Below, piece by piece: positions 58,994-62,674 of a stretch of DNA of 64,000 nucleotides. Location: assembly GCA_019637095.1 (NCBI GenBank), contig JAHBWG010000003.1:62001-126000 (forward strand), given 5' to 3'. The stretch comes from Sandaracinaceae bacterium. GTDB lineage: Bacteria; Myxococcota_A; Polyangia; Polyangiales; Sandaracinaceae. Made by a program: the position numbers and the translations under genes. The stretch's first letter is position 1. The number at the start of each line of letters is the position of its first letter. The notes beneath the pieces are model-generated. The model made no database searches and was not told the DNA's origin. It saw only the letters and a program-made list of their open reading frames with translations.

Positions 58994-59353
58994 GTAGCTA
59001 GCCGATGCCGTGCTCGCCGCTACGCGGCTTGCACGAGCTGCCACGGCGAGGCGCAGTACCGCGAGCCGCGAGCGCACGTCGAGGCGCGGACCCCCGCGGG
59101 CGCGCACGCCGGGCTCGAGGACGCCGCGCTCGTCTGCACCGTCTGCCACATGGTGCCCACCGCGCTCGGCGGCGCGGCGCGGCGCGGGCTCTTGGACGAG
59201 CGCCCCGTCGGAGCCCCTCCCGTGCAGTACTACCTCGGCGATCTCGCCAGCCACCGCTACCGCACGTCCGGCTTCGCCGCCGCCGCCGAGCAGCCCGCGT
59301 CGGTGACGCGGACCTGCGCCCCCTGCCACGCCCTGGTGCTCCCGAACCCCTGA
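58994..59353 (+). pseudogene. Triheme cytochrome c remnant without a start codon
   Basis: In one frame, between the TGA at 58991 and the stop at 59351, three CxxCH heme-binding motifs appear: CTSCH (59030-59044), CTVCH (59135-59149) and CAPCH (59315-59329). The frame has no ATG, GTG or TTG before the ATG at 59150, which would drop the first two hemes, and no signal peptide. This suggests a gene that lost its 5' end, or a start in another frame joined by a frameshift. The neighbouring OB-fold-like lipoprotein and carbonic anhydrase may once have formed one cluster. Confidence 0.6.
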
Positions 59354-59365
59354 CCGCTCCCTCCC

Positions 59366-60037
59366 ATGTCCAAGCGCGCCAAGCTCGCGATCGCCGCTGC
59401 CCTGCTGCTCCTCGGGGTGGCGGTGCTCGGCGCGGGCGAGGACGTGCGCTTCACGCTCGGAGGGGCGCTGGTGGACGTCGGCTACTTCGTGCAGGATCCG
59501 ATCGACGAGCCGGAGGACATCACGCCGTCCGAGGTCCTCTCGGAGGTGCACGCGCACAACGAGCTCGCCGCGTCGCTGCGCCAGCACTTCCCGCGCACGC
59601 ACCACCACCCGCTCGTCGCGATGGTCGTGTGCATGGACTCGCGCCTCGACACCAACGAGCTGCTCGGCGACACGCGCCAGTACTACTACGTGCTGCGCAC
59701 CGCCGGCTCGCTGCTGAGCGAGCGCGAGGAGGAGATGCTCGAGCTCGCCGTCGCGGGCGGCGTGAAGGTCATCCTGCTCACCACGCACACCGACTGCGCG
59801 GCCGAGCGCGCCGCCGCCGATCCGGTGCAGCGCGCGCGCTATCCGCACCTGACGGCGGGGGTCGACCGACGAGCCGCGCACCGCGCGGAGCTGCTCGCGC
59901 GCCCCGCGATCGCCGCGCGGATCCAGAGCGGCGAGCTGATCGTCGAGGAGGCGAGGATCGACACGCACACCGGGCGGCTCGCGGTCCTGTCGAGCCTGCC
60001 GCGGGGGTACGAGGAGGGGCACGCGCACCCGCCGTAG
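59366..60037 (+). CDS. Beta-type carbonic anhydrase, exported
   Basis: The 223-residue protein has an N-terminal hydrophobic segment (AKLAIAAALLLLGVAVLGAG) that probably anchors or exports it. The body has zinc ligands of a beta-carbonic anhydrase: Cys in VVCMDSRLD and His and Cys in THTDC. The fold then has a reduced C-terminus. It hydrates carbon dioxide, here apparently outside the cytosol. ATG at 59366, 12 bases after the cytochrome stop. Confidence 0.82.
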   Translation: MSKRAKLAIAAALLLLGVAVLGAGEDVRFTLGGALVDVGYFVQDPIDEPEDITPSEVLSEVHAHNELAASLRQHFPRTHHHPLVAMVVCMDSRLDTNELLGDTRQYYYVLRTAGSLLSEREEEMLELAVAGGVKVILLTTHTDCAAERAAADPVQRARYPHLTAGVDRRAAHRAELLARPAIAARIQSGELIVEEARIDTHTGRLAVLSSLPRGYEEGHAHPP

Positions 60038-60044
60038 CGCCGAG

Positions 60045-60437
60045 TCAACGCGCGGTGGCATCCGCCGCGCGCACCTCCCACCCCGCTGCGATCGCGTAGC
60101 CGCCGTCGGCGGTCTCGACGACGTCGCGCAGGCCGAGCTCGCGCAGGCGGCTGATCGCCACCTGCAGCCGCCGCTGGCCCGACGCCCCGACCGTCCGCTC
60201 GCCGGGCCAGCCCGCCTCGAGGAGCGCGTCGACGGAGACGGCGCGCGAGCTCGCGCGCGCGAGCACCGGCTCCGCGAGCCGCGCGAGGAGGCGCGCGAGG
60301 AGCCGCCGCGCGCGCAGGTCGATGGCGACGCCGCCCTCGACTCGCGCGAGCGCGCCGTCGGACGCGAGGTGGAGGATCTGCGCCGGCGCGAGCGCGCGCG
60401 CCGACCACGCGCGGATCAGGCGCGCGGCCAGCCGCAC
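60045..60437 (-). pseudogene. C-terminal winged-helix part of the regulator, out of frame
   Basis: This frame encodes a domain of the myxobacterial C-terminal winged-helix sort: GGVAIDLRARRLLARLLARL, SVDALLEAGWPGERTVG, RRLQVAISRLRELGL, DVVETADGGYAI. In relatives such a domain ends the ATPase/TPR protein. Here it is in a different frame from the ATPase, shifted by one base near 60437-60500. A GTG at 60437 could start it as a separate small protein of 130 residues overlapping the ATPase stop. Confidence 0.6.
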
Positions 60438-62674
60438 GTCGCTCGCCGCCCGGCGGCCCCATCGCCCGCGCGCGCCGCCGTCGGCTCGGCCGCCGCGAGC
60501 GCTTCGACGCGCGCGCGCGCGTCCGGCGCGCCGCCGCCCGCCGCCACGTCGAGCGCGAGCGTCGTCGCCTCGTCGAGCAGGCGCACGGCGTGGCGAAAGT
60601 TCGACGGCGGCAACGCGGCGGCGGCCGCGCGCGCGCGCTCCCGCTCGGCGAGCTCCGCCTGTTCGCGCGTGGCGAGCAGGAACGCGAAGATCGCGCCGAG
60701 CATCGCGCGGAACGGCACGGCGAGCGCGGGGCCGAGCGCGTCGAGCGCCTCGAGGGCGCCGGCGGCGGCGACGTCGCCGCGCTCGAAGCCGGCCAGCGCC
60801 GCGTACGCGCGCGAGATGCGCACGAGCGTCACCGCGCCACACGCGAGCGCCGCGGCGGTCGCGACGCGGTGGAGCGCGACCGCGGCCTCGAGATCTCCCT
60901 CGACGTGCGCCTGCATCGCCCACTCGGCGTCGAGGTACGCCGAGAGGTACGACGGCTCCTCCGCCGCGAGGAGCGGCCGCGCGCGATCGCGCGCCACCTC
61001 GGCCTCGGCGCGCCGCCCCATCTCGAGCAGGTGCATGCTCCACTCCGCCAGCGTGGCGCCGCGCCCCTCGTCGTCGGGGATCGCCGCGTGCGCGTCGTGC
61101 GCGCTCCGGTACGCCTCGTCCGCCAGCTCCGCCTCGCCCGCCCGCCGGAGCAACGTCGCGCGCACGCGCAGGCAGCTCGCCCGGAGCGCCGGATCGCGCG
61201 CCTCTCGCAGCGCGGCGTCGATCGCCGCGAGCGCCTCGCTCGGCCGCCCCACCTGGCTGAGCGCGTGGGCGCGCGTCCGGAGCGCGGCGGCCAGCCGATC
61301 CGGCGCCGCCGCCTCGCGCGCGAGCCGCTCCGCGCGATCGAGCGCGTCCGTCTCGAGCGCGCCCTGCCGCGCCCTCCAGCGCGCCTGCGTCTCGAACAGC
61401 GCCGAGGCCAGCGCCGCGTCGAGCGCGTCCGCGTGAGGCGCCAGGTCCGCGAGGCGCGCGAGGTGCGGGCGCGACGGACCGCCCGACCACCGCACGCGAT
61501 CGAGCGCGAGGAGCGCGCGCGCCGCGAGCTCGAGGTGCCCGGCCGCGATCGCGAAGTCGAACGCCGCCTCGAGCTCGGGCACGTACGGCGCGAGCGCGCG
61601 GCGCCTCGAGCCGGTCGTCGTCAGGCTCGCGCCGCTCGTCTGCTCCGCGCGCTCGACGACGACGCGCGCGTGACGCTCGGACAGGGCCGCGTCGGGGTGC
61701 GCGGGCATGCGCGCGCCGACCTGCTCGCGGATCAACCGCAGGAGCCGCAGCACGCGCGCCCCCGAGGGCAGCGCCTCGACGCGCAGGCAGGAGAAGGCGC
61801 TCAGCACCTCGACCAGCTCGACGACGGGCGGCTCGCGCGCGCCGAGCACCGCCTCGGCGAGCTCGAGCGGGAAGCGCCCGCGAAACACCGAGAGGTCGGC
61901 GAGCGCACGCCGCGCGGCCGGATCGAGCGCCGCCCACGTCGCGTCGAACGCGCGCCCGACCGCGTCGAGGGTCGCCGAGGCGCCGGCGAGCTCGAGCCGC
62001 GCGCGGAGCGATGCCGTCCCGACCAGGTGCTCGCGCCGCACCGCGAGCTCGATCGCGAGGGGGAGCCCGTCGATCGCGGCCAGGATCGCGACGAGGTCCG
62101 CGCGCTCCGCCTCCGACAGGACGCGGCCGGGCGAGAGGCGAGCCGCGTGCGCGAGCCACAGGCGCGAGGCGGGCGCGGTGTCGAGCTCCGCCTCCGTCGC
62201 CGGGGTCGCGAGCGGACCGACCTCGACGCGCGCCGCGCCAGGCTCGGCGAGGCGGTGGCGGCTCGTGACGAGCGTCGTGTCTCCCCCCGCGCGCTGGACG
62301 AGGGCCGCGAGGCGGCCCGCCGCGTCGAGCACCGCGTCCGCTCCGTCGAGCACGAGCGCGGTCGCGTCCGCCGCCTCGAGCGCGAGCCGGAGCGTGCTCT
62401 CGGCGTCGTCGTCGGGGCCGCCTCGGCCGCCGACCCCCGCGGACTCGAGGATCCGCGCCCACGCCTCGTCGAGCCCGCTCGCGTCGTGCACGTCGGCGAC
62501 GAGGCAGCGCGCGCTCGCCGCGCAGAAGGCGCGCACGAGCGCCGACTTGCCGCACCCACCGACGCCGTGGACGCCGACGAGCGCCGCCCCGCTCGCCACC
62601 GCGGCGTCGAGCCGCGCGAGCTCGGCCTCCCGGCCCACGAGGATCTCCCGCGGCCTCTCGACGGCGCGCCCCAT
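60416..62674 (-). CDS. ATPase-TPR regulator, frameshifted before its DNA-binding domain
   Basis: The 752-residue product has an N-terminal STAND/NB-ARC-like ATPase: EILVGREAELARLD, Walker A GVGGCGKSALVR near 40, ALVLDGADAVL, TLVTSRHRL and the GLPLAIELAVR block. A long helical TPR region follows from about 320. It ends abruptly after AAEPTAARAGDG in a run of low-complexity residues. The winged-helix domain follows in another frame, so the chromosomal copy lacks its DNA-binding part unless a frameshift restores it. Start ATG 62674. Confidence 0.8.
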   Translation of the reverse strand: MGRAVERPREILVGREAELARLDAAVASGAALVGVHGVGGCGKSALVRAFCAASARCLVADVHDASGLDEAWARILESAGVGGRGGPDDDAESTLRLALEAADATALVLDGADAVLDAAGRLAALVQRAGGDTTLVTSRHRLAEPGAARVEVGPLATPATEAELDTAPASRLWLAHAARLSPGRVLSEAERADLVAILAAIDGLPLAIELAVRREHLVGTASLRARLELAGASATLDAVGRAFDATWAALDPAARRALADLSVFRGRFPLELAEAVLGAREPPVVELVEVLSAFSCLRVEALPSGARVLRLLRLIREQVGARMPAHPDAALSERHARVVVERAEQTSGASLTTTGSRRRALAPYVPELEAAFDFAIAAGHLELAARALLALDRVRWSGGPSRPHLARLADLAPHADALDAALASALFETQARWRARQGALETDALDRAERLAREAAAPDRLAAALRTRAHALSQVGRPSEALAAIDAALREARDPALRASCLRVRATLLRRAGEAELADEAYRSAHDAHAAIPDDEGRGATLAEWSMHLLEMGRRAEAEVARDRARPLLAAEEPSYLSAYLDAEWAMQAHVEGDLEAAVALHRVATAAALACGAVTLVRISRAYAALAGFERGDVAAAGALEALDALGPALAVPFRAMLGAIFAFLLATREQAELAERERARAAAAALPPSNFRHAVRLLDEATTLALDVAAGGGAPDARARVEALAAAEPTAARAGDGAAGRRATCGWPRA

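Follow-up and report, generated by a model that had tools for sequence, protein, structure and literature searches.

A STAND-type regulator gene split by a net one-base frame change ahead of its winged-helix-like tail: a probable indel in a normally fused gene

The window analysed here is a stretch of 64,000 bases (G000:C121:62001-126000) from a draft genome of 9.25 Mb that is in 197 contigs and is 96% complete. On its reverse strand, a long ATPase-TPR frame runs into a shorter frame for a DNA-binding part, which lies -1 (equivalently +2) to the first and has its stop at 60045-60047. The features are listed below by window position.

60416..62674, reverse strand: ATPase-TPR part (P0001), STAND-type, with its likely start at the ATG of 62674 and its TGA stop at 60416-60418
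62537-62575 (within), reverse strand: GVGGCGKS (Walker A)
62327-62362 (within), reverse strand: LVLDGAD (Walker B-like)
62249-62275 (within), reverse strand: TSR (sensor-like)
62042-62068 (within), reverse strand: GLPLA (GxPLA)
60446..60484, reverse strand: interval holding the frame change, net -1 (mod 3), from codon usage, best at 60458-60460
60457..60460, reverse strand: GGGG at the best switch point, beside a short inverted repeat at 60445-60457 (by eye)
60045..60452, reverse strand: C-terminal winged-helix-like (wHTH) DNA-binding part (P0002), -1 frame, stop codon included
60435..60437, reverse strand: GTG codon in the wHTH frame, in what is the linker of fused relatives
59366-60037: carbonic anhydrase (Pro_CA match), between the regulator and the cytochrome remnant
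59003-59353, forward strand: what remains of a multihaem cytochrome c, its last 110 or so amino acids, with CxxCH motifs

P0001 is called STAND-type here, and is not Pfam-certified, because its matches to AAA_16 (E 4.8e-6, 27.6 bits against a cut-off of 32.6) and nSTAND6 (13.8 bits against 27.7) are both below the cut-off. The intact relative L026 likewise stays under the AAA_16 cut-off, at 30.0 bits. The Walker A, Walker B-like, TSR and GxPLA motifs that mark a STAND P-loop ATPase regulator are all present. The tail, P0002, is called winged-helix-like since its match to Trans_reg_C (PF00486) is also below the cut-off (E 0.011, 16.2 bits against 26.2). Indeed, tails of this kind mostly escape Pfam, with a Trans_reg_C match at E of 0.05 or less in 3 of the 19 members of the tail alignment A1, which is made up of 18 relatives and the window. 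A single-sequence AlphaFold model of the tail has helices and then two short strands, with a mean pLDDT of just 44.4, and a search for solved structures with the A1 profile returned no credible relative.

The AfsR/SARP and MalT-like regulators also have a STAND ATPase with a TPR or MalT-like region behind it, and the paralogue L013 has weak matches to AfsR (E 1.1e-7, far under the cut-off) and to TPR_MalT (E 1.6e-8). The OmpR-like and BTAD domains of AfsR are N-terminal, and MalT has a LuxR-type HTH at the C-terminus. In the window regulator it is a wHTH that is C-terminal, and there is no Pfam match to an N-terminal OmpR-like or BTAD domain in P0001.

The original prediction had the ATPase-TPR frame ending at 60416 and the winged-helix tail continuing one base back, and this is borne out by the stop codons and by a flip in codon usage. 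At 74.7% G+C open frames by themselves say little, and the wHTH frame chances to stay open as far back as 62801. The frame change was instead placed with a codon model, which was first trained on the 64-kb window and then retrained on 437 kb of G000. With the window-trained model, most 60-nt blocks down to about 60490 have scores between +0.5 and +0.7 nats per codon in the ATPase frame, and two blocks near 60640 fall to 0.16-0.32 nats per codon. The wHTH frame scores mostly +0.35 to +0.65 nats per codon in such blocks after about 60450, and the alternative frame is negative in nearly all blocks on either side of the junction.

With the 437-kb-trained model the likelihood of the switch peaks at 60460 (best 60458-60460) and the 95% set is 60446-60484, which is compatible both with the GGGG at 60457-60460, the only homopolymer of at least four bases in 60416-60520, and with the short inverted repeat that adjoins it. 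A switch at the GTG at 60437 is 5.8 nats worse than the best site, one near the stop (60419) 7.0 nats worse, and one in the 14-nt CG tract at 60508-60521 is 11.6 nats worse. When the 14 same-strand abutting frame changes from the segmentation of the window were tested, this junction was unique in the pattern of its coding signal, which switches well ahead of both the stop of the upstream frame and the first start of the downstream one, with an overlap of the two that then exceeds 4 bases.

Homologues were sought in G000 itself and 37 relatives, making 38 genomes from one order, with 10 of them in the same family and no second one from the genus. Matches to P0001 number 62, in 19 of the genomes, and those to P0002 number 96, in 18. 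A same-strand wHTH match lies downstream of 44 of the 62 ATPase matches, and in 43 of these 44 pairs the two parts are in one frame, the sole exception being the window copy. Several of the 18 unpaired ATPase matches are at contig ends. In one relative, L053 (G022:C93), the two parts are in frame with each other, but there are internal in-frame stop codons. The regulators with the same domain order (paralogues L012, L013, L015 and L016; relatives L026, L028, L029 and others) are each one open frame, of 851-1375 amino acids for most of those translated, whereas in the window copy a net -1 change breaks the frame. The best of these matches have 31-37% identity over the matched ATPase-TPR part and 34-42% over the aligned tails.

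On a profile of the C-terminal ends of 18 relatives, picked by hand out of 35 wHTH loci and including L021, the upstream part of which aligns poorly, the two pieces from the window are consecutive and lie end to end. Positions 6-260 are matched by the ATPase frame (27.4 bits) and positions 261-388 by the wHTH frame (122.6 bits). As the match on the ATPase side is weak and of low complexity, the join can be placed only to within about ten residues. The window gene is thus disrupted relative to its intact homologues. Homologues in which the two domains are separate genes, which the original prediction had named as evidence against it, were looked for in this set and were not found. Outside it, a nearest-locus search of genome contigs returned only two distant loci, with 27 and 29% identity, a plasmid search with the locus gave no match, and this regulator family was not found in literature searched on STAND and winged-helix regulators, frameshifting, and indels or pseudogenes in MAGs.

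That the relatives are fused, that the codon switch is sharp and that the split is not conserved together make it very probable, from sequence comparison, that a gene which is normally fused here carries a one-off indel, whether a real mutation or a consensus error.

The GTG at 60437 had been put forward as a start from which the DNA-binding part could be translated separately. There would then be two real, overlapping and translationally coupled genes, the ATPase-TPR gene ending at 60416 and the gene for a small DNA-binding protein starting at the GTG, with an overlap of 22 bases. The GTG is there, the overlap would be a short one, adjacent frames in L084 likewise overlap by 22 bases, and the codon evidence taken by itself prefers a frameshift to two genes by a modest 6.6-6.7 nats. 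Against this, the wHTH frame already codes upstream of the GTG and the ATPase frame does not, with scores of +2.3 and -3.5 nats respectively over the seven codons of 60460-60437. The residues just before the GTG also match the linker of the fused relatives: the column of A1 for Asp 11, which directly precedes the GTG, has a letter in 13 of the 18 relatives, and this is Asp in eight and Glu in two, while 14 relatives have a letter in the column of the GTG, Val in six of them. No Shine-Dalgarno-like AGGAGG is apparent by eye in the 25 bases before the GTG.

Free-standing wHTH genes were also looked for, 26 of the 96 P0002 matches being in frames of less than 520 amino acids, of which 18 were inspected. 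No free-standing wHTH gene is present among the 18. Five of these frames run off a contig or the edge of the fetched sequence, one (L024) repeats the tail of the L023 gene, and one is the stop-bearing L053/L068. In the remaining eleven the wHTH is fused to an N-terminal part of another kind, which by eye is presumably FHA-like, kinase-like, TPR or a short ATPase. With both the coding signal of the wHTH frame and its homology beginning upstream of the GTG, separate translation from this codon is disfavoured, and the two-gene arrangement is very unlikely. Since it falls in a part of the fused proteins that shows some conservation, the GTG is probably an internal codon of the fused protein and not a dedicated start.

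Frameshifting that is programmed, or slippage that is phase variable, would give both a truncated and a full-length regulator from the locus. Programmed frameshifting would require just the -1 relation that the frames have here, the RNA downstream is very stable (-62.8 kcal/mol) and there is the 14-nt CG tract. Yet there is no slippery heptamer of the form X_XXY_YYZ in the ATPase frame in 60416-60520, where the best candidate has two mismatches. The downstream fold is ordinary for its composition given a z of -1.12, 20 of 200 shuffles being at least as stable, and none of the other 43 paired matches has a frame transition at this place, the window itself being the one split pair in 44. Programmed frameshifting, offered as one of the possible causes in the original prediction, is unsupported by these data and was rejected on motif, structure and conservation; slippage in the CG tract was set aside on its codon score as a switch site. 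Recoding in either form is extremely improbable here. The same low probability attaches to a functional split, in which an ATPase-TPR form without its DNA-binding domain would be kept and the full regulator made through occasional frameshifting or reversible slippage in a G+C-rich tract; were this so, the output of the regulator would be on in a fraction of cells.

Of the causes first suggested, gene decay and sequencing or assembly error both survive. A consensus error in the draft assembly would mean that the organism has an ordinary fused gene, the frame change being present in the published sequence only. The assembly is in many contigs, the best switch point coincides with a GGGG that has an inverted repeat next to it, in DNA of very high G+C, which is a typical context for errors, and the other 43 pairs are all in frame across the join. 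There are 418 GGGG or CCCC runs in the window, by which the switch point is estimated to fall on such a run by coincidence about one time in seven. Codon usage is intact on both sides of the junction, which is in keeping with an error and which would make any real indel recent.

The GeneTack study (Antonov et al., PMC3711429) predicted 206,991 frame changes in 1106 genomes, of which 104,260 were singletons. Its authors expect singletons with homology (BLAST) support to be, in general, mostly sequencing errors, but hold that for a singleton close to the 3' end an indel mutation is the likelier cause. The window case is like these singletons, as described there, in being found in one genome only and bridged by homologous proteins, and is distinct from them only in its place between two domains.

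A globally error-prone assembly was considered and rejected, with no excess of frame changes visible in G000 over the single-contig G001. Unexplained frame changes, counted where the LLR exceeded 5 and the overlap exceeded 4, number 10 for the 835,934 bases taken from G000, against 9 for 400,000 bases from G001, and nothing in this marks the G000 assembly as unusually indel-prone, though both lists include false positives. When five of the G000 cases were inspected by eye, two looked like true frameshifts and the others doubtful or ordinary. The lack of a visible excess, and the finding of one such case in 64 kb, weigh against a consensus error, which is a quite possible explanation though a somewhat doubtful one.

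The neighbourhood has a bearing on the other explanation. The multihaem cytochrome c frame beyond the carbonic anhydrase has no start codon, while in three of the four other genomes with a match (L155, L156, L158) the homologous frames are of 716-800 amino acids, the fourth match, of 315 amino acids, being cut by a contig edge. The other parts of the cytochrome were found nowhere in G000. This remnant suggests that there has been real decay in the neighbourhood, and slightly favours a real indel in the regulator, but it could itself be a misjoin. A recent real indel at about 60446-60484, in the DNA of the cell, is the preferred explanation, though on the whole evenly balanced between likely and unlikely.

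In the case of a real indel, the ancestral locus would have held a single gene encoding a fused STAND ATPase-TPR-winged-helix regulator of this large-genome lineage. One recent indel in the interval of about 60446-60484 would have put the last 135 or so codons out of frame, and translation would pass through a short stretch of stray codons to the stop at 60416. The sensor/ATPase part would then be made without its DNA-binding output and, with the indel present in the cell, the function of the regulator would presumably be abolished.

The split looks like the result of a recent mutation of the ordinary sort or of a slip in sequencing, with no new mechanism. Its consequence is mainly one of annotation, where the locus should be treated as one disrupted gene, neither as two genes nor as a case of recoding. 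A more useful by-product may be the recognition of the wHTH-like tail, which scores below the Pfam cut-off and is fused to several kinds of N-terminal part. It is common to proteins that are quite different at their N-terminal ends (L055, L056, L057, L069, L075, L079, L022, L150-L153 and others), the partners being ATPase-TPR or, by eye, FHA-like, kinase-like and TPR parts, and looks like a shared output module in this bacterial order.

Other irregularities were seen elsewhere in this genome. On the same contig as the window, at about position 9362 of L090 (G000:C121:174362), a second large regulator, BTAD/AAA by eye, has an apparent frameshift that separates its N-terminal part from its ATPase domain. 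Another apparent frameshift, at about position 17883 of L092 (G000:C1:17883), is near the start of a gene that is Uma2-like by eye. At L023/L024 (G000:C5), the wHTH tail of a paralogue is repeated about 2 kb away with identical protein sequence, which would be either a duplication or an assembly artefact.
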